Part shown: positions 20,715 through 36,840 of the stretch, piece after piece | How the letters are laid out: each line of letters opens with the position of its first letter | How positions within the stretch are numbered: the stretch's first letter is position 1 | From: Zhongshania marina | Lineage (GTDB): Bacteria; Pseudomonadota; Gammaproteobacteria; Pseudomonadales; Spongiibacteraceae | Assembly (NCBI RefSeq): GCF_002915595.1 | Contig: NZ_PQGG01000040.1 | Location: 124,001-188,000, forward strand | Direction: 5' to 3' | DNA: 64,000 nt | The notes under the pieces: model-generated | Database searches by the model: none | What the model was told of the DNA's origin: nothing | What the model saw: the letters and a program-made list of their open reading frames with translations, nothing else | Program-made: the position numbers and the translations under genes

Positions 20715-21256
20715 GTTGACGACCTTGATAAAGTATCGGATGTGGACAGAGCGCCCAGACCATTAAAATTGCTGACGGCACAATACGTCGATATTTGCTT
20801 TTTGTCGCTATAAACCTAGGGAATCTTTTCAAAATTTGCCAACACTCAAGATTTAACAGTCCCCCACCTAACAAGACATGAGAACACCATCCAAAAGATA
20901 AGGACAATGCATACATTGAGGTAATAACTGAGACTTGCCACTATGGGGTACGATAGCTTTTTAGTACTTAGCCGCAGACCGAATTGCTAGTTCAAAAGAA
21001 AACGCGTCGTATGCCTGAATAATACCAATCTCCTCGACCTCTCCTAAAAGCTGTCGATACCCTCTCCCACAGAAATAGAACCGCTGCGTCACCTATACTA
21101 AGCACCAATATCAATTTGGTGGATACGTCAGGTGATGGGCGTAAGTAAGGCAAGGGACTCCTCATATATCCTTTACCTTTCAGCGACATTTTAGTCACAT
21201 TGACGGTGTTAACCTTCCAACCAAATAATACAGTCGATTATTGGAGGATTAACTCT
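20715..21256. other. Intergenic region before the TonB receptor operon
   Basis: About 540 bases without a gene I can support. A small minus-strand frame (20992-21198) lacks a ribosome site and family features. A CACCAA/TTGGTG dyad lies near 21103-21121. The right end holds a likely promoter for the TonB receptor gene. Confidence 0.5.
21200..21229 (+). promoter_or_regulatory. Candidate sigma-70 promoter of the TonB receptor/two-component operon
   Basis: TTGACG (21200-21205) and AATAAT (21224-21229) are 18 bases apart, placing transcription start near 21236 and the ATG at 21257. GGTGTTAACC between the boxes is partly symmetric and could be an operator. Confidence 0.4.
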
Positions 21257-23662
21257 ATGGGCAGGCAATTAAACACTTATAACAAGAATCTCAGACAGAT
21301 GTCGTGGCTAACGATTTCGGTACTCCTAATCGGCCTTCCACTTTTTGCCCTCGCAGCAGAAGCACCCGGTGGTATGACTTTTTTAGTAAAGGATCAGATT
21401 ACCGATCGGCCACTCTCAGCCGTGCAGATCAAGATCACGGAACGGGAAACCAATTCCACACAATCATTAGAGACCGACAAGCAAGGTCGTGTCGCCATTG
21501 AACAACTTGACCCCGGCCTCTACTCGGTGAACGTCGTCAAACGCGGGTACGCATCAAGCTATGAACCAAGTGTACGCGTAATTACTCGGAAGAATATCAA
21601 GATTGAATTCGAACTAAGAGCACAGGCTGTTGAGGAAGTGATAGTTCGCGGATGGATGACTGATCCATCTACATCAGCTTCTAGCACCTATCTAGACAGA
21701 GAAGCATTGCGAAGTGCTGTAGGCGGGGGCGCAGATCCGCTACTCTCGTTAGATGGATTGCCTGGTCTGGCTTCCGCTAGTGAATTCGCAAGCTTTAGTG
21801 TTCGCGGTCGAGGTCCGAGAGATAATTTATTGTTTGTTGATGATTTTCCCTTCGATAAAGCGGTGCACTTTGATGCGACCCTAGGTGAAGAGGAAGATGT
21901 CGGTGGTGGTGGCCGCTTCTCGATTTTCGCACCGAATGTTATCAGTGGAGCATCATTCTCACCGGGTGGATGGGGGGCGGCTTATGGTGGCCGCGCAGCA
22001 TCGCTACTCAAACTGGAAGTCGCTGATGGCAATCCAAGCCCTTCAGCAAGTTTCCGCTACGACCTTGCCGGCTATGAAGTGGGTTATGACGGCCCGATCG
22101 GTATCACTGAAGAGGCTACTTTGCTGGTTTCTGCTCGACAGCTAGACTTCGGCGCGTTGTTTGAAACTATTGAAGAGCTAGACATTGGAGAGCCTGTCTT
22201 AAGAGACGTCATCGTAAAGTCGGTTATACCCATCAATCAGAACAACACCTTTGAAATTCTACTGATAGATACACACGAGGACTATACACGCGGTGTAATT
22301 CACGTTTTTGAATCGCCCAATTTCGAAGATGCTTCGCTTCAAGATGCGGAACAAGATAGCGATTTGTTCGGCCTTACATTACGATCACTCATCGGTGAAA
22401 AATCAGTCTGGACCAACAAGGTTTACTATCGTTCAAGCGACAAAATCAGTTCAGAGGGCGAAGCTTTCCCCGACCTCGTCCCAGCAGGATCACCCGCGTC
22501 TAGTTTCCCTGTGCGGGAAGACATTATTACCATCGCCGAAGATGAAACGGAGATGGGCTGGCGAAGCGATTTCGAAACCGTAAATCAATGGGGTGTGTTC
22601 AGTTCCGGTATCCGAGTAACGCAAATTAAACTTGATTACAGCACAGTCTTAGATGGCGAATGGAACCGATTTATCTACGACGACGATGATTTTAGAGAAG
22701 ATCCCGAACAGCGCTATATCGTACTGACTCCTGAGAACATCAACTCTTCAATAAGCCAAAATGAAACGAGCTATGTTGGCTATGTCGATCAAGTTTTTGA
22801 ATTCGGTGATTGGGAATTTGGCACTGGCTTACGATTTGAGCGGGACGGCTTTGCAGACGAAAGCTTTGCGTCACCGAGGCTCAGCGTAAATTGGCAGCCG
22901 AGTACATTAGTTAGATATTTCGCGACCGCAGGGCTCTTTCATCAATCGCCACGGTTTTTAGAACTTGCGGCTAACGATTCAAACGAGCTTAAAACCGAAA
23001 AAATAACGCATCATAGTATCGGTTTAAAATATTTCCCAAACAATAACTGGTCAGTATTACTGGAGGCCTATTATCAACATCTCGACGAGCTTGTGGTAGA
23101 CCTTGATCGAGCAAATGGAACATTTGCCAATATTGGTGACGGCACGTCGTACGGCATCGACTTCGTCGTCGACGGTACGATCCGCGAAGGTCTTTACGCA
23201 AGCGCAAGCTATTCCTACAACGACGCCGTGGTTGACCGGAAAGATGGGCGCGGTGACGTAGCTGCTGAATTTAGTCGCGAGCACGTCGCCACCCTCGGCC
23301 TTACTTGGGAAATTAACGACCGCTGGAAGATCGCTGGACGCTACAAATATCTTTCTGGCAGACCAGACGACGAGTTCATAATTCACTCAGACGTGCTAGG
23401 ACCAGGACAACCGCTACGCTACTCAAAGGAAATCACTGAGCGCAACGTCGGCCGTAAAAGTGGTTCCAGTTTAGTGAATGTCCGTGTTGACTACAGACGC
23501 GCATTTGGCCCCATAGATGTTACAACCTTTCTCGATATCATCAACGTAACAGCTTCATCATCAAGCGACGACACCGAGTTTGACTACCGCAGAGGCATTG
23601 AAGTAAAAGACGACAGCGAAGCCGAGCCATTGATCGGTCTGCGACTGGATTACGCCTGGTAA
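21257..23662 (+). CDS. TonB-dependent receptor with carboxypeptidase-regulatory-like domain
   Basis: An outer-membrane receptor of 801 aa. After a signal peptide ending near ALAAEA, a small beta-sandwich domain (about residues 37-112; LVKDQITDRPLSAVQIKITE to IKIEFELRAQ) resembles CarboxypepD_reg. A plug domain follows (VEEVIVRG to about residue 250, with FSVRGRGPRDNLLFVDD), then a beta-barrel ending in the aromatic DYAW. ATG at 21257 has GGAGG 9 bases upstream; a frame to 21200 lacks one. Barrel and plug match TonB-dependent import; the ligand is unknown. It overlaps no other gene but is followed after 13 bp by a response regulator and its kinase, suggesting that the system senses its own substrate. 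Confidence 0.9.
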   Translation: MGRQLNTYNKNLRQMSWLTISVLLIGLPLFALAAEAPGGMTFLVKDQITDRPLSAVQIKITERETNSTQSLETDKQGRVAIEQLDPGLYSVNVVKRGYASSYEPSVRVITRKNIKIEFELRAQAVEEVIVRGWMTDPSTSASSTYLDREALRSAVGGGADPLLSLDGLPGLASASEFASFSVRGRGPRDNLLFVDDFPFDKAVHFDATLGEEEDVGGGGRFSIFAPNVISGASFSPGGWGAAYGGRAASLLKLEVADGNPSPSASFRYDLAGYEVGYDGPIGITEEATLLVSARQLDFGALFETIEELDIGEPVLRDVIVKSVIPINQNNTFEILLIDTHEDYTRGVIHVFESPNFEDASLQDAEQDSDLFGLTLRSLIGEKSVWTNKVYYRSSDKISSEGEAFPDLVPAGSPASSFPVREDIITIAEDETEMGWRSDFETVNQWGVFSSGIRVTQIKLDYSTVLDGEWNRFIYDDDDFREDPEQRYIVLTPENINSSISQNETSYVGYVDQVFEFGDWEFGTGLRFERDGFADESFASPRLSVNWQPSTLVRYFATAGLFHQSPRFLELAANDSNELKTEKITHHSIGLKYFPNNNWSVLLEAYYQHLDELVVDLDRANGTFANIGDGTSYGIDFVVDGTIREGLYASASYSYNDAVVDRKDGRGDVAAEFSREHVATLGLTWEINDRWKIAGRYKYLSGRPDDEFIIHSDVLGPGQPLRYSKEITERNVGRKSGSSLVNVRVDYRRAFGPIDVTTFLDIINVTASSSSDDTEFDYRRGIEVKDDSEAEPLIGLRLDYAW

Positions 23663-23675
23663 GGAGGAATTGCGC

Positions 23676-24380
23676 ATGGCACATGCGTTTGCTACAGCGC
23701 CGATTAGAGCCTTGATTGTCGAAGACAACCGCGATATTTGTGAAAATATTGCGGCATATCTCGAAAAGCATAGCTATATACTCGATTTTGCCTATGACGG
23801 TATCAGTGCGATGCATTTGGCGTTAACGAATCCATTCGACGTGATCGTGCTGGATCTAATGCTGCCAGGGATGAGTGGCTTGAATTTCTGCAAAAAGCTG
23901 CGAACGGATGCCAAAATAGAAACACCTGTTCTTATGCTAACGGCGAGGGACACACTTGACGATAAACTTAAGGGGTTCGAGGCAGGCGCCGATGATTATT
24001 TGGTCAAACCATTCGCATTACAGGAACTGCATGTGCGATTACAGGCCCTTTACAAACGCAGTCGCGGAAAAACCGACGAGCTGTTAACTGTTGGTGACCT
24101 GACCCTGAACCGTTCCACACTACAAGTCCATCGCGCGGGACAGCGCGTCGACCTCAACCCCGCTTGTATGAAACTGCTGCAACGATTAATGGAAGTTGCG
24201 CCGTCTGTTGTGTCTCGTGATGATCTCGAAACTTTGCTATGGGCAGACGAACGCCCAGATGGTGACGCACTTCGCTCACACTTATACAAGCTGCGACAAG
24301 CTATCGATAGGCCTTTTGATAACCCCTTAGTTCATACCGTACATCGCATCGGCTACCGAATTGCAGAGGATGTTAAGTAA
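23676..24380 (+). CDS. OmpR-family response regulator
   Basis: A 234-aa two-component regulator. The receiver domain has the acidic pair in IVEDN, the phosphoacceptor D60 in VIVLDLMLPGMSG, a conserved Thr in MLTARD and Lys in LVKPF. The C-terminal winged-helix DNA-binding domain ends with VHTVHRIGYRI. AAGGAGG lies 8 bases before the ATG at 23676, so the earlier TTG at 23670 is not the start. It is 13 bp after the TonB receptor stop, and its own stop overlaps the kinase ATG as TAATG. It is therefore part of one operon and its likely target is the receptor promoter or a linked uptake function. Confidence 0.93.
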   Translation: MAHAFATAPIRALIVEDNRDICENIAAYLEKHSYILDFAYDGISAMHLALTNPFDVIVLDLMLPGMSGLNFCKKLRTDAKIETPVLMLTARDTLDDKLKGFEAGADDYLVKPFALQELHVRLQALYKRSRGKTDELLTVGDLTLNRSTLQVHRAGQRVDLNPACMKLLQRLMEVAPSVVSRDDLETLLWADERPDGDALRSHLYKLRQAIDRPFDNPLVHTVHRIGYRIAEDVK

Positions 24381-25633
24381 TGTACCGGCACAGTTTGCGT
24401 ACGCGTGTCGCCATTGCATTTACTATATGTGTAGCAGTACTTAGCATAGCCTGGGGATTCGCGTTCTTCGCGGCAATCAGATTAAGCGAAGATCGTGTGT
24501 TAGTGAATCAGTTACAACGTGCCGCCGAAAGCTACCCTTTTTTGCCGACAAATCTACGCGGATACGATGATGCTGCTAGCCTGCCGGCATCACTCAAGGA
24601 GTGGGCGCAAACAAACCCCGACGAGGGATTGTACGAATTCCATGCCGATGAGTTACATGTCGCGGTGCTTTCTGTCGACAACGGAAATCCGGCGACTGAC
24701 ATTGAACAGCAAAACGCATTTGTGGTTTTCAACGTTGCTGGGATTGAGGCTGAGTCATCAGAGGATTGGTGGTGGCTACTACTTATTATCGGTATCGTCG
24801 TTACTCTCGGTGTGCTGGGTTTCGCACTGGGAATTATTGTGATGCGTAAAGCTATCGCCCCAGTCGCGCAACTTGCCAAAGTAGTTGCAGATATAGATCC
24901 GCAACAACTCTCTGCCGACGATTATAAGCGTATACAATCTAGCAGGTTCGGTGATGATGAGGTTGGCGTGCTTGCTAGAACCATTGAAACGACGCTTGAG
25001 CGTATCAGCGCATTCGTTGCAAGGGAGCGATACTTTACCGATTCAGCCAGTCATGAGTTGCGCACGCCAATCACAGTAATAACCGGCGCACTTGAACTGT
25101 TAGAGCAAAGCGAACTGTCAGCGACTGATGTGAAGGCACTAAATCGAGTAAGGCGTGCCACGCTCGACATGAAAACCACAATAGAAATGTTCTTGGCCCT
25201 CGCTCGCGAAACCGACGACGGATTATATGATGAGCAGTTTTTGGTGATGCCACTGGTAAGCAAGGCGATAGATCAGCAACGCTACCTATTGAACAGCAAG
25301 TTGGTCGATGTTGATATCGACCAACTTGCCAATCCCAAAGTCTGCGGACATCAGCAGGCTTTTTCTATCGCGGTCAATAATCTGGTACGAAATGCATTCG
25401 AGCACACGCTCGACGGGCAGAGACCAATCACGATTCACATCAAAGAACACGAGCTATTCGTCACCAATCAGGTACGCAGTGAAACTGATGCGCAACGCAC
25501 ACAACCCGAGGAGTCTCCGCCAAACGGATATGGCCTAGGTTTGGGCATAGTGCAAAGGCTGTGTGAACGAAATGGCTGGTCATTTTCTCTACATGCTGAC
25601 GAGACTTGTGTAGCCGCCCGTCTTTCATGGTAG
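24380..25633 (+). CDS. Sensor histidine kinase
   Basis: A 417-aa inner-membrane kinase with TM1 at about residues 8-33 and TM2 at about 129-154, enclosing a periplasmic sensor region of roughly 95 residues. A HAMP linker follows, then the phosphoacceptor H225 in SASHELRTP and an ATPase domain with N-box NNLVRNAFEHT and glycine motif GYGLGLGIVQRL. The ATG overlaps the response regulator stop. The sensor region has no domain I recognise. Proximity to the TonB receptor suggests a ligand entering through that receptor, which is inference. Confidence 0.92.
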   Translation: MYRHSLRTRVAIAFTICVAVLSIAWGFAFFAAIRLSEDRVLVNQLQRAAESYPFLPTNLRGYDDAASLPASLKEWAQTNPDEGLYEFHADELHVAVLSVDNGNPATDIEQQNAFVVFNVAGIEAESSEDWWWLLLIIGIVVTLGVLGFALGIIVMRKAIAPVAQLAKVVADIDPQQLSADDYKRIQSSRFGDDEVGVLARTIETTLERISAFVARERYFTDSASHELRTPITVITGALELLEQSELSATDVKALNRVRRATLDMKTTIEMFLALARETDDGLYDEQFLVMPLVSKAIDQQRYLLNSKLVDVDIDQLANPKVCGHQQAFSIAVNNLVRNAFEHTLDGQRPITIHIKEHELFVTNQVRSETDAQRTQPEESPPNGYGLGLGIVQRLCERNGWSFSLHADETCVAARLSW

Positions 25634-25801: not shown

Positions 25802-26749
25802 CTAGGTCTGCGACTGACTCTGGGTTTGGCTGGGAGCCGGCGCTACGGTGTTAAATCCAATGGCATTGCCCAGTTCAACTCTTGCAACGTCTACCGCTAC
25901 AGACAAGATCTGCTTTCCTCCTCCGCCAAACACCACGCCTTTTAGGGGAGTCACATCTGAATAGTCGCGCCCCCAGGCAGTTGTTATGTGTTGATCTGCG
26001 GGCATGACGTCGTTGGTAGGGTCAAAATCCTGCCAGTCATCCCCCGGAATATAAACCGCAAACCAAGCATGTGAGGCATCTGCCCCCTGCATTTTAACCT
26101 GGCCTGGTGGTGGCAATGTTTCCAGATAACCACTTACATAGCGGGCAGCAAAGCCAAGACTACGCATTACGCCAATGGCCAAGTGGGCAAAATCTTGGCA
26201 CACGCCACGACGGTTTTTTAGTACATCAACTAAGGGGGTTGCGACCGTTGAAAAGCCAGGATCGTATTTAAAATCCTTAAAAATACGGGAATTTAATTCC
26301 CCCACCGCCTCTAAAAAAGACCTTTCGGGACGGAATAGGTCGCGACCAAAATCAGCTAGCTGAGGGCTGGTGGCAATCATCGGTGAGTTAAAGGAAAACT
26401 CTGTCGCCGACATGTCTTCTAATTCACTACCAGATTTTAAAGCTGCTAACACTTCTGCGCAGGTGATTCCGCCGCCTAGTAGGCGCGGCTCAGATGGCGC
26501 GATTTCAACCTCGCTGTCCACAATAACCTCTAAGGATTGGTGCGGTCGCTCTACCGTAAAATGGCAGACTACATTGCCAAAATAATCAACGCGCTTAATT
26601 CTACTCGTCGGTGCAGGAATGATACGAATATCACTATAATTTACCCGTTGCCCATTACATTCGCGGGGAATTAAGTACGCGACGTTATATCCCTGATTCA
26701 CCTGATCGGCATATTCGTAGCGGGTTGAATGCCTTACCCGATATTTCAT
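25802..26749 (-). CDS. Transglutaminase-like cysteine protease
   Basis: A 315-aa protein of the bacterial transglutaminase-like superfamily. The N-terminal MKYRVRHSTRYEYADQVNQG is the usual N-domain start. The catalytic triad is C184 in RGVCQDFAH, H227 in ASHAWF and D243 in FDPTN. There is no signal peptide, so it should act in the cytosol. It is the last gene of the ATP-grasp/alpha-E operon, and its ATG overlaps the stop of the fused gene as ATGA. Published genome-context work (Iyer, Aravind and colleagues) proposed that such peptidases process peptides made by the ATP-grasp ligases. The C-terminus has a short Gln/Ser-rich tail. Confidence 0.93.
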   Translation of the reverse strand: MKYRVRHSTRYEYADQVNQGYNVAYLIPRECNGQRVNYSDIRIIPAPTSRIKRVDYFGNVVCHFTVERPHQSLEVIVDSEVEIAPSEPRLLGGGITCAEVLAALKSGSELEDMSATEFSFNSPMIATSPQLADFGRDLFRPERSFLEAVGELNSRIFKDFKYDPGFSTVATPLVDVLKNRRGVCQDFAHLAIGVMRSLGFAARYVSGYLETLPPPGQVKMQGADASHAWFAVYIPGDDWQDFDPTNDVMPADQHITTAWGRDYSDVTPLKGVVFGGGGKQILSVAVDVARVELGNAIGFNTVAPAPSQTQSQSQT

Positions 26750-29271
26750 GAAACACCTCTGCCACTCATTTCAACGGGTTGCGGCCCCATAGCGTGATCG
26801 AAATAGCGATCTGCCAAAGCTTGGGATGCCGCCTTCAGGTCAGCGTCTAACTGGTCAAGTAATGCGCCCAACTTTAAATGGTTGCCGGTTTTCTCGTCGC
26901 GTTTGGCAATCTCTTCCAGCGGCGTGAGTAATAGATTATTTGTTGCACGTAAAATACAACGCATATCATCGCTCAGCTGAATACTCTTGTTCGCACCTTC
27001 AACGTCTTCTAAATGATTGCGTAAACTTTCGAGCTGAAACATCAGCGAACGCGGGTTTTGACGATCAAACAAAAGCAGCTCCATACCCTTGTCTAAGCGG
27101 TAGCCACTCCGGTAATAGCGCTTGTAAACGATGCGCGATTCCAAGCTCGCCAACACCGGCTTTAATAGCGGAACGCCCTGACTATCACCCTTGTCGTTAA
27201 CTAAGACATGACTTAGTAGTTCAACAGTTTGTTGCGCGCGCTCTAAGCGTCGGCCCATCTCCATAAACCGCCAAGCGCGGCTACGCACCATGCTTTCTTG
27301 GCTTAAACCACAGAGCGCTAACAAGCTGGTAATCAATGGGTCGAGTAATTCCTCTGGCGCGGCCTGCAAACTACTTTCAAGATTTTTATTCAGATACTCC
27401 ATGCCGTCGCGAATATCGTTTACCAAGCGCAGCATGTCATTTGACAGCAGCTCTTTTACACCATCGGCGGAATGCAGAATCGCTTCTAGGCAATGGGCAA
27501 TACTGCCAGGTCTTGAGCGGTTTGAAACTATGTCGAGCAGCTCATGCTCAGGAGTTTCAAAATCCGCATCTTTCGCGGTAAAGCCTGGAAAGGTGCCGGT
27601 GACCTTGGTAACTGAGCACAGCAGTACGCGGCGGTTTTCTGGCGACAGGGGCTCAATACTATTGAGTTCTTCAAAAACGGTTCGAACCAAACGCAAACCT
27701 GATTCCGCCCGCTCCGCGTAACGACCAAACCAAAATAAATTGTCGATAACACGGCTTGGCAAGCTGAAATTGCGATCCATTTTTTGGCGCGCTAATTTTT
27801 CAGGCTCGAATACGCTGTCTTCTATTTCTGGCTCAGACGCCAAAATCCACGTGTCTTTGCTACCGCCGCTGTACTGGCTAACAATATGCTGGGTGTCGGT
27901 GTGAGTGCCAATATGGGTAAGCCCACCGGGCATAACACTATATGAGCTGCCGCTGGCAACGGTAAAGCCACGCATTACCAAGGGGCGACTGCTAAAGACC
28001 TTGCCATCTAAAGCCGGTGTTTGCGAAGGACGCACGGCACTTTGCGCCACATAATCGATGGGGTTTGCCAAGACCTTTGCCAACAAGTCTGCGCGCTCTT
28101 GGGGATTTAGCTCCGCTACAAACTGGCTGTGACGCCCTGGCACTCGGCAGGTATGACGAATCAGTAGGTCGTCGAAATGGGCCTTAACATACTCTAAATC
28201 AGTTGCATCGCCGCACCACCAGGTTGGTACCGAACTTAGCCGCAAGTCGCGACCAAGAAAATGGCGGGCAATTGCCGGCATGTATTTAGCCAGTACTGGG
28301 CTTTCTAATATGCCGCTGCCGAGAGGGTTGGCGATAATAACACCACCGGCGCGGGCCACTTCAGTTAAGCCCGGCACACCCTGCCCAAAACTCTGCCGCG
28401 ACACCACGGGGTCGGCTACGCTGTCATCTATTCTGCGAAGCACCACGTCAACTTTGCGCAGACCGTCTAGCGACTTTAACCATAGAGCGCCTTTGCGAAC
28501 AGTTAAATCCCGACCCTGTACCAAGGGATAGCCCAAGTAGTTCGCGAGATAAGCGTCTTCAAAGGAGTTTTCCTTGAACGCACCCTGCGTGAGGTAAACC
28601 ACCAATGGCGCGTCTTTGGTCGGGCTAAGCTCCGCTAATTTACGGCGCCACTGCAAAAAGAAATTAGACAGGCGGTGAACGTGGGCGTCGCGGAATAAGC
28701 TGGGCATCACCCGCCGCAATACAGTTCTGTTCTCTAGGGCGTAGCCTGTTCCCGATGGCGCTTGGGTTCTGTCGCCAATGACCAACCACTCGCCACTGGC
28801 CGAGCGCACCAAATCTGCGGCGTGAAATATCAGCTGATGTTCGCCCGGCAAGCGAATGCCGTCGCAGGCCCGCAGAAAACCTGGGTGACTAAAAATAGCC
28901 GCCGGTGGGATGACTTTGTTATGGATGAGCGTGCGCTCACCGTAAAGATCACTCAGGATTAAATTGAGAAGCTCAGAGCGTTCGCGAAGGGCATTTTCTA
29001 TAGACTCCCACTCCTGACTCGACAGGATCATGGGGAGTAAATCTAAGCTCCAGGTGTGACTAACATTGAGCTGGTCCCCGGGGCTGTAGCTAGCGCCGTC
29101 GTCGCGAAGAATACGCTTGGCGGTGCGCTGCCGTTCAAGGAGGGCATCCATACCCATAGCATTAAGTACCCGCATAGGATAATGCCAATGTTCGCGAACA
29201 TTGCCATCGGCTCCGATGACCTCGTCGTATTGGTCATGCTGCGGTTTATAAACAAAGCGTTCAGTTAACAT
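26746..29271 (-). CDS. Fused circularly permuted ATP-grasp (type 2) and alpha-E protein
   Basis: An 841-aa two-part protein. Residues about 20-480 align by eye with the stand-alone ATP-grasp protein encoded at 30.4-31.9 kb (shared LRRIDD, PSGTGYALENR, GGSKDTWIL). Residues about 503-830 match the alpha-E (DUF403) family (SRVIDNLFWFGRYAERAES, RRLERAQQTVELL). The ATP-grasp half looks degenerate: the metal-binding ED of the active enzyme reads G166-D167 here, the ATP-contacting Lys position is Arg (LLIRH, about residue 372), and the following glycine loop is gone. It may be a structural partner of the active enzyme. Its stop overlaps the transglutaminase ATG. A 225-bp gap separates it from the alpha-E gene upstream. 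Confidence 0.88.
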   Translation of the reverse strand: MLTERFVYKPQHDQYDEVIGADGNVREHWHYPMRVLNAMGMDALLERQRTAKRILRDDGASYSPGDQLNVSHTWSLDLLPMILSSQEWESIENALRERSELLNLILSDLYGERTLIHNKVIPPAAIFSHPGFLRACDGIRLPGEHQLIFHAADLVRSASGEWLVIGDRTQAPSGTGYALENRTVLRRVMPSLFRDAHVHRLSNFFLQWRRKLAELSPTKDAPLVVYLTQGAFKENSFEDAYLANYLGYPLVQGRDLTVRKGALWLKSLDGLRKVDVVLRRIDDSVADPVVSRQSFGQGVPGLTEVARAGGVIIANPLGSGILESPVLAKYMPAIARHFLGRDLRLSSVPTWWCGDATDLEYVKAHFDDLLIRHTCRVPGRHSQFVAELNPQERADLLAKVLANPIDYVAQSAVRPSQTPALDGKVFSSRPLVMRGFTVASGSSYSVMPGGLTHIGTHTDTQHIVSQYSGGSKDTWILASEPEIEDSVFEPEKLARQKMDRNFSLPSRVIDNLFWFGRYAERAESGLRLVRTVFEELNSIEPLSPENRRVLLCSVTKVTGTFPGFTAKDADFETPEHELLDIVSNRSRPGSIAHCLEAILHSADGVKELLSNDMLRLVNDIRDGMEYLNKNLESSLQAAPEELLDPLITSLLALCGLSQESMVRSRAWRFMEMGRRLERAQQTVELLSHVLVNDKGDSQGVPLLKPVLASLESRIVYKRYYRSGYRLDKGMELLLFDRQNPRSLMFQLESLRNHLEDVEGANKSIQLSDDMRCILRATNNLLLTPLEEIAKRDEKTGNHLKLGALLDQLDADLKAASQALADRYFDHAMGPQPVEMSGRGVS

Positions 29272-29344
29272 GGATGTGGCGCCAAAAGCGTGCGTCGAGT
29301 AAAAGAAATACCCAGAATTAAAGGAATATCACTACGGTCACATC

Positions 29345-29401
29345 CGCGATTCCCAAACCGTAAACACCACGATCTTGCACCATGTTGGTGCTGGAATCGC
29401 G
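29345..29401. repeat. Nested inverted repeat inside the ATP-grasp operon
   Basis: CGCGATTCC (29345-29353) and GGAATCGCG (29393-29401) pair perfectly, with an inner CACCA/TGGTG stem. The element fills the only sizeable gap in the operon. No T-run follows on the minus strand. It could be an RNA processing or control element, or a protein-binding site. Confidence 0.6.
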
Positions 29402-29496
29402 ACCGCCACCAACAGCAAATCACGATGGAGAAGACTACCGTAAGTCCCTAATCTGGGCAAACCCATGCGGCTGCTAGATTTACCTACTAACACTAA

Positions 29497-30429
29497 TTAT
29501 GCTGGCTGAAACCATGTCCCCTGAATGGCTTTGTGAATCACCAGTGAGTTTTTTTCCAGCTCGGTGAGATAGCTGGGAAAACCCACCGATACATCGCTGT
29601 AATCACTGCCCTTGGTAACCGTTTTCAAAAAACTGTCCAAACAAGCCACAACGTTTTCATTAGACGGCAACTGCTTGGCGGAATCTTGCATCCGTAACAA
29701 ACCGCAACTCACGGAGCGTGGGAATAGCGTGTCTTCCAGTAAAAAGCGTGCGGCATCGTCACCGTTAATCGCCACCTTCATTGTTCGCCGGTAAGGCATG
29801 GTGGCATTCAAGGTGCCAAGCACACTCCCCCACACCGCATCTAAAACGTGGTTGGTGTCATTTTCAATAAAGTCGCTAGACATACTCGCACCTGCCTCCA
29901 AAATCCGGAGGGTCATATCGGCCCGCTCTAAGCTGCGCCCCATATTCAAAAAATGCCATGCCGCATCGCGACGCATAGTATCGGCGATTAGGCCATTGAT
30001 CTGCTGACAGGTTTTAATAATGTCCTCTAGAAACTCATGGCGGTATCGGCGATTAACACCTTGGGTGATATTTTCTGAGACAAAAATCTGGAACTCGTTC
30101 ACCAGCTCCCAGCTCTCCTGCGGCACTATGTCTCTGGTGGTGCGAATATTTTCCCGCACCATACGCAGTGACGAAGCCAGCGAACTTGGGTTGCTAAGAT
30201 CCTCTAATAAAAACTTCACGACCCGCTTTTCGTCCTGAACGGTAAAACGCCGGTTATATTCCCCGTGACTGCCGCTGGCAATGACCAAGTTATGCCAGCT
30301 AATGCCGGTATCCCGTGGGAGGTCGAATAATAGCCCAGTATAAACCTGAATCAGGCGGGCCATACTTTCAACACGCTCTAAGTAGCGCGCAAACCAATAC
30401 ACTCGCTCTGCAACTCGAGATAGCATCAT
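29497..30429 (-). CDS. Alpha-E domain protein (DUF403)
   Basis: A 310-aa all-helical alpha-E protein. The signature MLSRVAERVYWFARYLERVES starts the protein, and the second conserved block (AWHFLNMGRSLERADMTLRI) lies in the middle. The role is unknown; the family occurs almost always with circularly permuted ATP-grasp proteins and is thought to assist them. Its ATG overlaps the ATP-grasp stop as TAATG, which indicates coupled, roughly equal synthesis. A second alpha-E domain is fused to the degenerate ATP-grasp protein encoded next in the operon. Confidence 0.93.
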   Translation of the reverse strand: MMLSRVAERVYWFARYLERVESMARLIQVYTGLLFDLPRDTGISWHNLVIASGSHGEYNRRFTVQDEKRVVKFLLEDLSNPSSLASSLRMVRENIRTTRDIVPQESWELVNEFQIFVSENITQGVNRRYRHEFLEDIIKTCQQINGLIADTMRRDAAWHFLNMGRSLERADMTLRILEAGASMSSDFIENDTNHVLDAVWGSVLGTLNATMPYRRTMKVAINGDDAARFLLEDTLFPRSVSCGLLRMQDSAKQLPSNENVVACLDSFLKTVTKGSDYSDVSVGFPSYLTELEKNSLVIHKAIQGTWFQPA

Positions 30430-31913
30430 TATTTTGCGCCCCCTTCCGCGATAATCCAGGTATCTTTACTACCACCACCCTGTGACGAATTAACGACAAG
30501 CGAGCCTTTTTTCAAGGCTACCCGTGTTAAACCACCTGTCGTTACCGCCAAGTCTGTGCCCTGTAAAACAAAGGGTCGCAAATCTAAATGTCGCGGTTCG
30601 GCCTCTCCTGGCCCGGTGACCACCGGTGCGGTAGAAAGCATCAGTGTAGGCTGGGCGATATAATTGCGGGGATTTTCCTGAACTAATTTACGAAATTCTT
30701 CATGATCTTTTTTGGTGGCATGGGGGCCGACCATCATGCCGTAACCGCCCGATTCATTGGCGGGCTTAACCACCAATTTTTCGATATTTTCTACAACGTA
30801 TTTAAGCTGCTCTGGATCGTCGCAAAGATAGGTTTCGACATTGGGCAGAATCGCTTTTTCGCCCAAATAGTATTCGATCATTTTCGGCACATAGGCGTAG
30901 ACCACTTTGTCATCTGCCACACCGGCACCGGGGGCATTTACCAAGGTCACATTACCCGCCTGCCAAGCGCGCATGATCCCCGGCACCCCTAAAATCGAGT
31001 CGGGATGAAAGGCTTCCGGATCTAGGAACAAGTCATCTATCCGCCGATAAACGACATCAACCCGCTCAAGACCGGAAATGGTTTTCATGTACACGCAGTC
31101 ATCGGTATCGACAAATAAGTCGCTACCCTCCACCAACTCAACCCCCAACTGCTGGGCCAAATAGGCGTGCTCAAAATAAGCCGAGTTATAAATACCCGGC
31201 GTGAGAATGACAATCTCTGGTTGGCGCACCTTACGCGGCGACACCGAGGCCAACATATTAAATAGCTTGGCGGGGTAATCATCGACGGGGAGGATATTGT
31301 TAGTCTCAAATAACTCTGGCAATACGCGCTTGCTGATCTCGCGGTTTTCCAGCATATAGGCGACACCTGAGGGAACCCGCAAATTATCTTCTAAAACATA
31401 AAATTTGCCGTCAGCATCACGTACCAAATCACAACCGCATATATGCGCCCACACACCTTTCGGTGGATTAATACCCACACACTCCGGACGAAAATTTTTA
31501 GAATCCTTAATCAGGTATTCCGGTACCACGCCGTCTTTAAAAATCTTCTGCTCGTGGTATACATCATTAATAAACAGGTTTAACGCCCGCACCCTTTGCA
31601 TCAGCCCACTGGCGGTCTGCTCCCACTCCTTGGCGCTAATCACTCGCGGAATAAGGTCGAAGGGCCATGTGCGGTCGATATTCTCACCATCGGAATACAC
31701 CGTAAAACTCACACCCATGTCGCGCACTGTGCTTTCAGCCGCCACCCGCCGGCTCTCTAACTCTTCACGACTAAGTTGCGCTAAATGTTTTACTACGCGC
31801 TGACTAGCGCGGCGAGCCCCTCCTTTGGGCGTGATCATTTCATCGAAAAAACCATCGGCTTGATACTGACTCCAATCGATACCGCCAGATTCCTTGTCTG
31901 CACCTTTCGTCAT
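30429..31913 (-). CDS. Circularly permuted ATP-grasp protein (predicted peptide ligase)
   Basis: A 494-aa predicted amidoligase. ATP-grasp residues appear intact: VLEDNLRVPSG (E175, D176), YRRIDD at 289-294, and VVKPANESGGYGM (381-393) with K383 and the glycine loop; GGGSKDTWI closes the fold. By analogy with the superfamily it would join a carboxylate to an amine using ATP, but its substrate is unknown. It is the first gene of the operon with alpha-E, the fused pseudo-ATP-grasp/alpha-E protein and a transglutaminase-like protease. A sigma-54-type promoter lies about 150 bp upstream. ATG start at 31913. Confidence 0.92.
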   Translation of the reverse strand: MTKGADKESGGIDWSQYQADGFFDEMITPKGGARRASQRVVKHLAQLSREELESRRVAAESTVRDMGVSFTVYSDGENIDRTWPFDLIPRVISAKEWEQTASGLMQRVRALNLFINDVYHEQKIFKDGVVPEYLIKDSKNFRPECVGINPPKGVWAHICGCDLVRDADGKFYVLEDNLRVPSGVAYMLENREISKRVLPELFETNNILPVDDYPAKLFNMLASVSPRKVRQPEIVILTPGIYNSAYFEHAYLAQQLGVELVEGSDLFVDTDDCVYMKTISGLERVDVVYRRIDDLFLDPEAFHPDSILGVPGIMRAWQAGNVTLVNAPGAGVADDKVVYAYVPKMIEYYLGEKAILPNVETYLCDDPEQLKYVVENIEKLVVKPANESGGYGMMVGPHATKKDHEEFRKLVQENPRNYIAQPTLMLSTAPVVTGPGEAEPRHLDLRPFVLQGTDLAVTTGGLTRVALKKGSLVVNSSQGGGSKDTWIIAEGGAK

Positions 31914-32064: not shown

Positions 32065-32081
32065 AGCAATAGGCAGGCCAA
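32065..32081 (-). promoter_or_regulatory. Candidate sigma-54 promoter of the ATP-grasp operon
   Basis: Read on the minus strand, TTGGCCTGCCTATTGCT has the invariant GG and GC spaced by 10 bases and matches TGGC..G-N4-TTGC of the RpoN consensus at nearly every position. Transcription would start near 32054, about 140 bases before the ATP-grasp ATG. The rest of the 374-bp gap (31914-32287) has no gene; I saw no clear activator-binding site upstream. Confidence 0.6.
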
Positions 32082-32287: not shown

Positions 32288-33343
32288 TTATGCCGCTTTA
32301 ATGCGTTTTTTGAACAAAAATTTCTCTTCCGCCAAGCCCTCGGCAATTTTTTCGGTAGACATATTGCTCGCACTAGAGCGGGTAAATACCTCTAGCAATG
32401 TATCGGCAATTGTTGCGATATGCGCCGAGGTATTCGCAGAGCTCCCCTCTGCACGCTGGTAATACACATCAATAATACCGCCAGCATTAATCACAAAATC
32501 TGGGACGTATAAAATCCCCCGCTGCAATAAGCGCTCGCCCTGAGCATCGCTGGCTAGCTGATTATTTGCGGCACCAGCGACGATACCCGCTTGAATACTC
32601 TCTACAGAAATTGAATTGATAGCCGCCCCCATTGCGCAGGGAGCAAGTACATCGGCCTTAAAACCTAGCACCTCGTCACAGCCAATTATCGTAGCGCCAG
32701 CTTGACGCGCCAAATCGGAATTTTGGGGATTCACATCGGCGACAAAGACTTGAGCACCTTCGCCAATCAGCAGAGCAATCAAGTGCCGCCCCACTGCGCC
32801 CGCGCCCTGCACCGCAACACGAACTCCAGACAAACAATCGCTGCCACATTTAAATTTTAAGGCGGCTTTTATTCCGTAAAATACTCCCTGTGCAGTATAG
32901 GGCGACGGATCACCGCCAAAGCGACCACCCTCCATGACACCCGACACATAGGAAGTACGCTCTGCAATAATTTTTAAATCACTTACCGTAGTACCTGAAT
33001 CTTCCGCCGTGATATAGCGCCCGGCTAAATCATCAACAAAGCTGCCCATCGCTAACAGCAAGTCTCGGGACTTTATTTTGTTGGGATCACCAATAATGAC
33101 CGCCTTGCCGCCGCCCAAGGGCAAGCCGGCCAAAGCAGATTTATAGCTCATTCCCCTCGACAAACGCAGCACGTCATTCAGCGCATCGTCATCATTTGCA
33201 TAGGGGTACATTCGACAACCGCCCAGGGCCGGCCCTAGATTTGAGTTATGTACCGCTACGATAGCGCGCAAACCGCTGCGCTCGTCGTGTTTAAACGAGA
33301 TGAGCTCGTGGCCATCGAAATAAGGCGAGTTAAACACCGTCAT
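32288..33343 (-). CDS. Leucine/branched-chain amino acid dehydrogenase
   Basis: A 351-aa member of the Glu/Leu/Phe/Val dehydrogenase family that oxidatively deaminates a branched-chain (or aromatic) amino acid to its 2-oxoacid with NAD. LGPALGGCRMYPY is the substrate-binding block, the catalytic Lys is in LPLGGGKAVI, and AEDSGT and the Rossmann motif VQGAGAVGRHL are typical of leucine dehydrogenase. It follows the fused ferredoxin oxidoreductase gene by 20 bp on the same strand, so the two are co-transcribed: the dehydrogenase would supply the 2-oxoacid the oxidoreductase uses. A divergent Lrp regulator lies beyond. Confidence 0.93.
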   Translation of the reverse strand: MTVFNSPYFDGHELISFKHDERSGLRAIVAVHNSNLGPALGGCRMYPYANDDDALNDVLRLSRGMSYKSALAGLPLGGGKAVIIGDPNKIKSRDLLLAMGSFVDDLAGRYITAEDSGTTVSDLKIIAERTSYVSGVMEGGRFGGDPSPYTAQGVFYGIKAALKFKCGSDCLSGVRVAVQGAGAVGRHLIALLIGEGAQVFVADVNPQNSDLARQAGATIIGCDEVLGFKADVLAPCAMGAAINSISVESIQAGIVAGAANNQLASDAQGERLLQRGILYVPDFVINAGGIIDVYYQRAEGSSANTSAHIATIADTLLEVFTRSSASNMSTEKIAEGLAEEKFLFKKRIKAA

Positions 33344-33363
33344 TACTCACTCCCTTTTAACTA

Positions 33364-36300
33364 TTACGCCGCGTCGTGAACGTCCACAAGTTGGACAACA
33401 TCGCCACTCAAACGCTTGATAAGATGCTCGCGACGCAGACGATATTGATTTATAGCAGCCTCTTTTACATGACCGAAGCCGCGCACATCATCAATTAAGG
33501 CAAACAACTCGACGGCGACATTAATATTTTTCTCATTCAACTTGATCAGTACATCATCAAGATCGCCTATAAATTCATCACGCAGGGCACGCTCCGCCTT
33601 TCGCTCTGCGGAGTAAGCAAACACATCCCAGCGCGTTCCACGAAGAGATTTTAATTTCGCAAGCAAGGTAAAAGCGCTTAGCATCCACGACGAAAATGTT
33701 CTCTTAACAGGAAAGCCGTCAGAACCTATTTTAGCCATCAGCGGCGGCGCCATATGAAACTGCAATTTATAATCGCCTTCAAAGGCCTCATTGAGCTTTT
33801 TAGCAAAGTCGCCATCACTGTACAGACGCGCCACTTCGTACTCGTCTTTGTAAGCCATGAGCTTATGTAGCGATTTAGCAAAGCTCGTCGTTAGCTCAGC
33901 CGCCACTCCGCAAATTTCTTCTTCCTTTGCTTTTACCCTATTCAACATTGCCAAATACTTGTCGGCATAATTTTTATCTTGGTATTTCAACAGATGGTCA
34001 TAGCGATACTGAATAATCTCATCTAGCTCACTCAATGGTGACCAATGTTCAACTTCTACACCCGCCGCTTGGCGAACTGCGTCGATATCGTGTGCTGCAC
34101 GACGGCCCCACAAAAACGCCTGTTTGTTAAAGTCTATCGCCACGCCATTTAGCTCAATGGCTCTATCAATGGCGTCGTAACTGATCGGCACATAGCCTTT
34201 TTGAAATGCGTAGCCCAACATAAAAAAATTGCTCGCCAAAGTGTCACCCAATAAATGGCTAGCTAATTCAGTGGCATCCACAAAACTCACTTTGCCTTCA
34301 CCCACTTCGTCGACAATCAATTGCTTCATAGTATCCGCGGGGAATTCTGCATCGCGCTTATAAATAAATTCCGCTGTGGTCATTTCGGTATCATTGACAA
34401 CCGCCACGGTGCGCTCAATATTGACCTTGGCGATCGCCTCATCAGAGGCCGCCACGACTAAATCGCAACCTAATAACAGGTCTGCATCACCAGCGGGAAT
34501 TCTTACGGCATTAATATCGTCTTGATTATTGGCGACTCTCAAGTGGCTCACTACCGGCCCGAATTTTTGTGCCAAACCAGTCTGGTTCATGGTGGCGCAG
34601 CCCTTGCCCTCTATATGCGCCGCCATACCCAATACTGCGGTAATGGTTAGCACGCCGGTGCCACCCACACCGGTAACAACAAGATTCCAAGGTCGTGTAA
34701 TACTTGGCAAACTGGGCAGTGGAATTTCTGCAAAGCCATCCGTCGCGACGGCAGTATTTTTCCGTGGCGTGCCTCCGATAACCGAGACAAAGCTCGGACA
34801 AAAGCCGTTCACACAGGAATAGTCCTTATTACAAGCGCTTTGATCGATCTGGCGTTTGCGCCCCAGTTCTGTTTCCTTAGGTAAAACGGACAGGCAATTT
34901 GATTTCTTACCGCAATCGCCACAGCCTTCACAGATAGCATCGTTAATAAAAATACGGCGATTAGGATCAAGCATTGTGCCTTTTTTGCGGCGACGACGTT
35001 TTTCTGCAGCACAGGTTTGTTCATAGATCAGCACCGACGCACCAGTGACGTTTTGCAATTCCTTTTCAATAGCCAACAAATCGTCGCGATGGCTAATAGT
35101 AAAACCATCTTTTTGTGGCCAAGAATAATTCTCGGGATGATCAGACACCAAGGCGATGCGTTTAATCCCCTCGCCCCGCAATTGCAAAATAAGTTGCTCA
35201 ACGCTTAGCGAACCATCAAGCGGCTGGCCACCCGTCATCGCCACCGCGTCGTTATACAGAATTTTGTAGGTGATATTGACACCCGCCGCGACGGCCTGAC
35301 GAATCGCCAAGCTACCGGAGTGAAAGTATGTGCCATCACCCAAGTTCTGAAAGACGTGTTTATTCTCCGTAAACGCGGCCTGCCCCACCCACGTTACACC
35401 TTCACCGCCCATTTGGGTAAAGGTAGTCGCTGGGCGCGTAGGCATCCATGTACTCATATAATGACAACCGATACCGCCGAGCACCACGCTGCCCTCAGGT
35501 GCAACAGTCGAGGAGTTGTGCGGACAACCAGAACAATAATGCGGGGTGCGGTTAATTACACCGTGTTTATTAGCAATAGATTGCTCTTTTTGCTCATAAA
35601 ACCGCAGGCGTTTTTCAATGTAGTCACTCTTATAGAAACGGCGAATACGCGCGGCAATAGCCCGCGCCACCATCGCCGGCGTGAGTTCACTTAGATTAGG
35701 TAAAAGATCTTTACCTTGCTCATCAAACTCGCCAATAACGCGCGGACGGTCGGCCACCGGCCAGTTATAGAGTTGGCCTGTAATCTGATCTTCAATCACC
35801 GAACGCTTTTCTTCAACTACCAGTATTTCTTCCAAACCCGCTGCAAACTCATGGGTTGTTAAAGGCTCAAGCGGCCAAGGCATGCCAACTTTGTAAACCC
35901 GCAAGCCAATAGCTGCGGCCTGCTGCTTATCAATACCCAAGTCTTCGAGGGCCTGCAGCACATCGAGATAAGCCTTGCCACTGGTGACAATTCCCAAACG
36001 AGCCTTGGGACTGTCAATCACAATGCGATTCAAATTATTCGCCCGCGCAAAAGCCCGCGCAGCATAAATTTTGTATTTATTGAGCCTTAGCTCTTGTGCC
36101 AAGGGTGAGTCTGGCCAGCGCGCATGTACGCCGTCCGGTGGCATCACAAAGTCCTCTGGCAGCACAATATTGACTCGGCGCGGGTCAATTTCTGCTGAGA
36201 TTGCCGAATCCATATTTTCAGTAATGGCCTTTAATCCCACCCAACAACCTGAGTAGCGAGACAACTCCCAACCGTAAATGCCTAAGTCCAACACTTCCTG

Positions 36301-36840
36301 CACATTGGCCGGCGCCAGTACCGGAATAGACGCCCCCATAAACATATGTTCAGACTGATGGGGCAAGGTAGATGACTTAGCCGCGTGGTCATCACCCGCC
36401 ACCGCCAATACTCCGCCAAACTTTGAGGTGCCGACCGCATTGGCGTGCTTAATAACATCCATACTGCGATCAACACCCGGCCCCTTGCCGTACCACATAC
36501 CAAATACGCCGTCGTATTTAGCATTGGGGAACAGGCCCACCTCCTGACTGCCGCGCACAGCCGTCGCAGCCAAATCTTCATTTACCCCAGGTACAAATTG
36601 AATATGGTGTTTTTCGAGGTATTTCTTGGCGCTCCACATGGCCTGATCAACATTACCCAGCGGCGAACCACGGTAGCCAGAGATAAACCCCGCCGTATTC
36701 AATCCACGCTCCAAATCGCGCTGATGCTGCAACATCGGCAGGCGCACCAATGCCTCAATGCCGGTCATATAGGCACGGCTACTGTCCAACATATATTTGT
36801 CTTCTAAAGAGATCTTAAGAGCATTGTCAGAAAGAGGCAT
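33364..36840 (-). CDS. Fused indolepyruvate-type ferredoxin oxidoreductase
   Basis: A 1158-aa single-chain 2-oxoacid:ferredoxin oxidoreductase. Thiamine-diphosphate halves fill residues 1-610 (CSGCPHN at 436-442; GDGTYFHSG at 501 with NDAVAMTGGQP at 530-540). A 4Fe-4S motif CEGCGDCGKKSNC lies at 637-649, with further cysteines to about 681, and the gamma domain starts near NLVVTGVGGTGV (719). It would decarboxylate aryl- or branched 2-oxoacids to acyl-CoA, reducing ferredoxin. The adjacent leucine dehydrogenase favours branched-chain or aromatic amino acid breakdown. ATG at 36840; the gene is divergent from an Lrp regulator. Exact 2-oxoacid preference cannot be read from sequence. Confidence 0.93.
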   Translation of the reverse strand: MPLSDNALKISLEDKYMLDSSRAYMTGIEALVRLPMLQHQRDLERGLNTAGFISGYRGSPLGNVDQAMWSAKKYLEKHHIQFVPGVNEDLAATAVRGSQEVGLFPNAKYDGVFGMWYGKGPGVDRSMDVIKHANAVGTSKFGGVLAVAGDDHAAKSSTLPHQSEHMFMGASIPVLAPANVQEVLDLGIYGWELSRYSGCWVGLKAITENMDSAISAEIDPRRVNIVLPEDFVMPPDGVHARWPDSPLAQELRLNKYKIYAARAFARANNLNRIVIDSPKARLGIVTSGKAYLDVLQALEDLGIDKQQAAAIGLRVYKVGMPWPLEPLTTHEFAAGLEEILVVEEKRSVIEDQITGQLYNWPVADRPRVIGEFDEQGKDLLPNLSELTPAMVARAIAARIRRFYKSDYIEKRLRFYEQKEQSIANKHGVINRTPHYCSGCPHNSSTVAPEGSVVLGGIGCHYMSTWMPTRPATTFTQMGGEGVTWVGQAAFTENKHVFQNLGDGTYFHSGSLAIRQAVAAGVNITYKILYNDAVAMTGGQPLDGSLSVEQLILQLRGEGIKRIALVSDHPENYSWPQKDGFTISHRDDLLAIEKELQNVTGASVLIYEQTCAAEKRRRRKKGTMLDPNRRIFINDAICEGCGDCGKKSNCLSVLPKETELGRKRQIDQSACNKDYSCVNGFCPSFVSVIGGTPRKNTAVATDGFAEIPLPSLPSITRPWNLVVTGVGGTGVLTITAVLGMAAHIEGKGCATMNQTGLAQKFGPVVSHLRVANNQDDINAVRIPAGDADLLLGCDLVVAASDEAIAKVNIERTVAVVNDTEMTTAEFIYKRDAEFPADTMKQLIVDEVGEGKVSFVDATELASHLLGDTLASNFFMLGYAFQKGYVPISYDAIDRAIELNGVAIDFNKQAFLWGRRAAHDIDAVRQAAGVEVEHWSPLSELDEIIQYRYDHLLKYQDKNYADKYLAMLNRVKAKEEEICGVAAELTTSFAKSLHKLMAYKDEYEVARLYSDGDFAKKLNEAFEGDYKLQFHMAPPLMAKIGSDGFPVKRTFSSWMLSAFTLLAKLKSLRGTRWDVFAYSAERKAERALRDEFIGDLDDVLIKLNEKNINVAVELFALIDDVRGFGHVKEAAINQYRLRREHLIKRLSGDVVQLVDVHDAA

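Follow-up and report, generated by a model that had tools for sequence, protein, structure and literature searches.

A conserved ATP-grasp/alpha-E fusion protein, predicted to be dead as a ligase, in a putative amide ligation/hydrolysis gene cluster of Zhongshania marina

In a stretch of 64,000 nt of the genome of Zhongshania marina (Gammaproteobacteria, Spongiibacteraceae; contig NZ_PQGG01000040.1, positions 124,001 to 188,000; the window) four open reading frames (ORFs) on the minus strand, at 25802-31913, encode a stand-alone circularly permuted ATP-grasp protein (AG), a stand-alone alpha-E protein (AE), a fusion of a second ATP-grasp domain with a second alpha-E domain (FUS) and a transglutaminase-like Cys hydrolase (TG). 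We suggest, with a probability of about 0.5, that this locus belongs to a split system of amide ligation and hydrolysis induced by nitrogen limitation, with FUS as a non-catalytic ligase-like subunit. The ORFs lie exactly where the initial annotation had placed them, and the domain set given there agrees with Pfam matches far above cut-off (Table 1). In FUS the pseudo-ATP-grasp domain covers residues ~12-478 and the alpha-E domain ~504-824.

In AG the stretches EDN (residues 175-177), YRRIDD (289-294) and VVKPANESGGYGM (381-393) are all present, and at the matching places FUS reads GDR (166-168), LRRIDD (278-283) and LIRHTCRVPGRHSQF (370-384). In glutathione and glutathionylspermidine synthetases the E and N act as metal ligands, while the lysine corresponding to K383 and the glycine loop bind phosphate. 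Across 65 AG proteins, E175, D176, N177, R179, D334, D335 and K336 are each invariant (65/65) and the glycine loop is found in nearly all; with ExN metal ligands, lysine and glycine loop intact, AG is predicted to be an active ATP-grasp enzyme. FUS, compared over 104 proteins, has E, N and K at the positions equivalent to E175, N177 and K336 in 0/104 each, and equivalents of D335 and D444 were not seen in any aligned FUS sequence. The glycine loop belongs to the most variable stretches of the FUS family (entropy ranks 83-100%). Thus, with the ExN ligands and the glycine loop gone, FUS does not look like an active ATP-grasp enzyme. The change of ED to GD and the motifs kept in AG had been seen correctly in the initial annotation, which however overlooked the better conserved change of N to R. 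The loop, which had also been called lost, is variable and has no conserved replacement, although G390 is still found in 46/104. The exchange of the ATP-contacting lysine for arginine is not general, since K is kept at the K383 equivalent in 69/104 FUS proteins and R is found in 31/104.

All sequences in this comparison are different. It should be noted that the 80 named loci were collected with a FUS profile and that the plasmid search likewise started from FUS (7 of 117 records fetched, six with fused and one with separate genes), hence fusions whose site is intact may have escaped. Two short AG pieces of locus L057 were excluded, and L056 was moved out of the AG rows (67 to 66), as it is one part of a fused protein whose gene is broken into two overlapping ORFs. 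L077 and L034 are the same record; the final 65 AG and 104 FUS are without the duplicate, which some tallies include. The split gene of L056 (genome G042; ORFs of 631 and 523 aa) is either a draft assembly error or a real break.

Where AG has EDNLR, FUS mostly has [GAS]DRTQ, and the whole stretch mostly follows [GAS]DRTQxPSG; among the 104 proteins G, A or S stands first in 87, followed by D in 102, R in 98, T in 91 and Q in 98. Substitutions specific to FUS are almost fixed, with N to R in 94%, R to Q in 94% and D334 to E in 95%. The six fusions taken from plasmid records likewise lack E and N (6/6), and their motif is more varied than in the main set. It seems as if the catalytic apparatus of FUS is gone, yet part of its site was rewritten and then held fixed. 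The label "degenerate" in the initial annotation is misleading, as the site has turned into a conserved motif that appears to be under purifying selection.

Besides the window, 15/15 same-genus loci fetched encode a fused protein, as do loci of several phyla. For eight genus pairs the replacement rate of the FUS ATP-grasp half was lower than that of AG in six and slightly higher in two; as most pairs are saturated at synonymous sites, the ratios are indicative only. The dead domain is, by these rates, under strong purifying selection and changes about as slowly as AG. In a tree of 104 rows after thinning (L056 carried the AG label and is read as FUS) AG forms one side of a single long branch (length 1.58; SH-like approximate likelihood ratio test, SH-aLRT, 100). 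Three long-branch FUS rows are placed uncertainly, and FUS is or is not a clade according to where the tree is rooted. The structure model of FUS is confident, with a complete glutathione-synthetase-like fold in the ATP-grasp half. In the alpha-E half both ER motifs are kept and several residues fixed in stand-alone alpha-E proteins are changed. The pair of an active ligase and a dead fused paralogue, as first proposed, is supported by the 65 AG and 104 FUS proteins, the six plasmid proteins, the tree and the model. As FUS is strongly preserved in many bacteria despite its lost catalytic residues, it most likely has a function of its own.

Three other readings of FUS were weighed against these data. 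A complete Mg-ATP site retained through shifted residues, named in the initial annotation as the result that would speak against it, is very improbable. The fold is intact and several equivalents are kept (D162 in 99/104, R446 in 104/104, K383 as given above, and R290 and D298 in 105/105 each, duplicate included), but the alignment shows E, N and K336 lost in every one of the 104 proteins, and the loop is without a conserved replacement, though some retain G390. That FUS is merely a decaying duplicate is hardly credible: the loss of catalytic residues would fit, and it is contradicted by the presence of FUS at all genus loci fetched, in the window and in several phyla, by a non-synonymous rate as low as that of AG, and by the conserved new motif. 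A neo-enzyme or ligand sensor, with the site rebuilt around R168, Q170, D167, D153, E323, R279, R434 and K472-D473 for another ligand or for metal-free chemistry, is possible though doubtful. It would account for specific residues being near-invariant while the glycine loop varies freely, and in set A3 (70 FUS sequences) the residues of the rebuilt site reach 90-100% conservation; the conserved residues may instead serve folding or protein contacts, and the motif varies more in the six plasmid-borne proteins.

The four genes are tightly coupled in pairs, AG/AE through TAATG (1-nt overlap) and FUS/TG through ATGA. The latter overlap and the catalytic residues C184, H227 and D243 of TG were correctly given from the start. 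Between the pairs lies a gap of 225 bp (29272-29496), and the order AG, AE, FUS, TG is unchanged in the 15/15 same-genus loci. The description as one operon is doubtful, as the gap holds a conserved sigma70-type element. This sigma70-type pair with 17-bp spacing is found in 15/16 genus loci (L038 fits at 16) and in 0/147 control upstreams. Because FUS-TG carries this site of its own, AG-AE and FUS-TG are probably two transcription units.

Upstream of AG, a sigma54-type site (GG-N10-GC) with a score of at least 29 is found in 16/16 genus loci, with differing inner bases, and before 0/147 control ORFs. Among named loci, 14/37 AG upstreams (13/36 without the duplicate) reach this score, compared with 10/1276 controls. 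RpoN (TIGR02395, 507.4 bits) and NtrC (TIGR01818, 748.9 bits) are both encoded in the genome, above cut-off. Dyads similar to the NtrC-site-like AGCACCAACATGGTGCA of the AE-FUS gap occur in 5/16 genus loci; in L039 the dyad has a paired change (GCACTAATACAGTGC), a hint of a selected dyad or hairpin. In other species, NtrC and sigma54 control is reported for cluster I35_5080-83 of B. cenocepacia (PMC5491218), induction by nitrogen limitation for the Anbu-type operon genes PP_2686-2688 of P. putida (PMC7801951; PMC3325844), and an RpoN-box-like sequence is tabulated before a CP_ATPgrasp_1 gene in Bradyrhizobium (PMC13207237). Nitrogen shortage, we suggest, probably induces the four-gene cluster.

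A protein combining a transglutaminase-like part with DUF2126 (TG-DUF2126), of ~1100 aa, is commonly encoded before FUS in other bacteria, and was in view at 61/80 named loci; stand-alone AG and alpha-E were in view at 36/80. In the present genome it is found on a contig other than that of the cluster (L074:3885-7247, 1120 aa), out of sight of the initial annotation. Three genus genomes consist of a single contig (G004, G011 and G015), and there the gene lies more than 1 Mb away. Cluster and DUF2126 are both present in 16/18 genus genomes and both missing in two (G013 and G014), which are also without alpha-E. Of 299 sampled genomes of the phylum 156 have alpha-E, and DUF2126 is found in 0/143 of those without it. 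Genomes with at least two alpha-E carry DUF2126 in 76/87 cases, against 8/69 with one (p 9e-23, uncorrected for kinship), leaving eleven with at least two alpha-E and no DUF2126. Its gene too has a sigma54-type site, with a score of at least 26 in 16/16 genus loci (controls 12/147) and at least 27 in 15/16 (3/147), where up to 540 bases were scanned compared with 380 for controls. On this co-occurrence TG-DUF2126 is a predicted fifth component, unlinked but co-inherited with the cluster. Only the Pfam name marks DUF2126 as an amidoligase, and a literature search with DUF2126 as term gave no match.

In the reading we favour, AG would couple a carboxylate with an amine at the expense of Mg-ATP, in line with its family, its intact site and the orthophosphate release of a homologue, and TG-DUF2126 may, by its Pfam name, be a second ligase. 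FUS, which at the sequence level has lost the glycine loop and what are presumed to be its Mg ligands, would be unable to run the normal ATP-grasp reaction and could be a non-catalytic subunit that holds a substrate, product or partner of the ligases. It would serve TG and DUF2126, working with the TG encoded in overlap, which may trim, cleave or transfer the amide. AG-AE and DUF2126 of Zhongshania seem to be under sigma54 control and FUS-TG under sigma70 control, hence the hydrolase half may be produced at all times and the ligases only under nitrogen shortage. Further, we tentatively speculate that the fused ATP-grasp is an ancient, phylum-spanning pseudo-ligase family, its ATP/Mg site rebuilt into a different site for binding or catalysis, conserved as [GAS]DRTQxPSG, and a hub through which two ligases and a Cys hydrolase are linked in an amide pathway of nitrogen starvation; on balance we consider this bolder version unlikely.

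Several points weigh against the favoured reading. Among the named AG upstreams 23/37 score below 29, the sigma54 matrix was built from a general consensus, the sigma70 pattern was drawn up with the sites already known, and the upstreams of orthologues do not count as independent cases. Within the window no NtrC dyad was detected upstream of AG, and the dyad AGCACCAACATGGTGCA is within chance as a pattern. DUF2126 is not in view at 19/80 named loci, several of them on cut contigs, and FUS-TG pairs without AG or DUF2126 nearby are seen in Tsukamurella, Sphingomonas and S. meliloti pSymB (L174, L175 and L177). Finally, a pull-down with the Anbu operon of Y. bercovieri reportedly gave no specific complex (PMC6376114).

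By its adjacent domains, conserved order and the DUF2126 gene in the genome, the Zhongshania locus can be assigned to the known circularly permuted ATP-grasp/alpha-E/transglutaminase system; what is new here concerns FUS and its wiring, the system itself being already known. As citing papers describe it, the system of Iyer et al. 2009 (PMC3268129) shares the domain set and gene adjacency, and peptide synthesis or modification was proposed; Zhongshania differs from it in the detached DUF2126 gene and the promoter-like element of FUS-TG. The Anbu operon (ATP-grasp, alpha-E, TG, Anbu; PMC6376114), which is NtrC-controlled in P. putida (PMC7801951), has protein families in common by name, whereas no Anbu was detected in the Zhongshania genome and the four-gene Anbu operon as described in PMC6376114 has no fused pseudo-ligase. 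Published work had been taken to consist of context analysis only, which is not the case: the ATP-grasp protein of the Yersinia bercovieri Anbu operon releases orthophosphate from ATP, in an assay that did not distinguish amide formation from hydrolysis (PMC6376114), and NtrC/sigma54 control is reported for such operons (PMC5491218; PMC7801951). Among the literature matches listed no pseudo-ligase is described for this system, though an earlier mention in Iyer et al. 2009 is possible, and none of these matches names a product.

The only sequence relative found in the PDB is 3n6x, a putative glutathionylspermidine synthase of Methylobacillus flagellatus (E 1.4e-165 to AG, 2.2e-70 to FUS). It belongs with AG, as it reads VLEDN and SGGYGM, motifs that FUS does not have. 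The nearest working analogue is glutathionylspermidine synthetase/amidase, whose ligase and hydrolase are here split over several proteins. To this enzyme and to eukaryotic-type glutathione synthetase identity is only 6-14% over the aligned part, and Zhongshania has its hydrolase as a transglutaminase-like protein on its own, with one of the ligase copies apparently dead.

A degradative system, in which the ligases tag proteins or peptides for turnover under nitrogen starvation and TG (elsewhere Anbu) cleaves them, seems to us rather unlikely. What is reported for P. putida and B. cenocepacia, control by nitrogen limitation and NtrC, would suit it, and the Anbu authors prefer degradation over peptide synthesis (PMC5666114). 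On the other hand no Anbu was found in the genome, where the sole match to the proteasome family (PF00227) is HslV beside HslU, and Anbu was without peptidase activity in the tests reported in PMC6376114.

Table 1. Features of the ATP-grasp/alpha-E locus, in positions of the window
Feature	Position	Strand	Details
AG, stand-alone circularly permuted ATP-grasp ligase, predicted intact	30429..31913	-	494 aa; Pfam CP_ATPgrasp_2 1e-168
AG motif EDNLRVPSG	31365-31391	-	EDN = residues 175-177
AG lysine/glycine loop VVKPANESGGYGM	30735-30773	-	residues 381-393
AE, stand-alone alpha-E protein	29497..30429	-	310 aa; Pfam Alpha-E 1.4e-72
FUS, predicted pseudo-ATP-grasp/alpha-E fusion	26746..29271	-	841 aa; CP_ATPgrasp_2 4.8e-133, Alpha-E 2.3e-67
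FUS-specific GDRTQAPSG replacing EDNLRVPSG	28750..28776	-	residues 166-174
FUS stretch LIRHTCRVPGRHSQF replacing the ATP lysine/glycine loop	28120..28164	-	residues 370-384
TG, transglutaminase-like Cys hydrolase	25802..26749	-	315 aa; Bact_transglu_N, Transglut_core; C184/H227/D243
Sigma54-type -24/-12 site TTGGCCTGCCTATTGCT	32065..32081	-	begins 168 bp before AG start
Sigma70-type TTGCCC-17-TAGTCT	29432..29460	-	AE-FUS gap; conserved in genus
Dyad AGCACCAACATGGTGCA, NtrC-site-like	29376..29392	.	AE-FUS gap; only some close relatives

Upstream of AG on the same strand (32288-36840) lie a Glu/Leu/Phe/Val dehydrogenase gene and one for a 1158-aa POR/TPP oxidoreductase with DUF6537. On the opposite strand (21200-25633) are genes for an 820-aa protein (carboxypeptidase-regulatory-like, with weak outer-membrane barrel matches), a response regulator and a histidine kinase. 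Elsewhere in the genome, transglutaminase-like genes on L075 and L076 were not linked to the system; two of them, small and of 267 and 283 aa, are in tandem at L075:3905-5589. In the FUS-TG pairs of Tsukamurella, Sphingomonas and S. meliloti pSymB the motif reads ADRTQ, ADHLR and SDRTE, respectively.

The alpha-E domain, the marker of the system, is widespread in the phylum, while the product goes unnamed in the literature examined. The present analysis makes the earlier context prediction testable, as to which residues matter, which unlinked gene belongs to the system and which growth condition induces it. ATP-grasp-fold pseudo-ligases conserved over several phyla would form an unusual class of pseudoenzymes.
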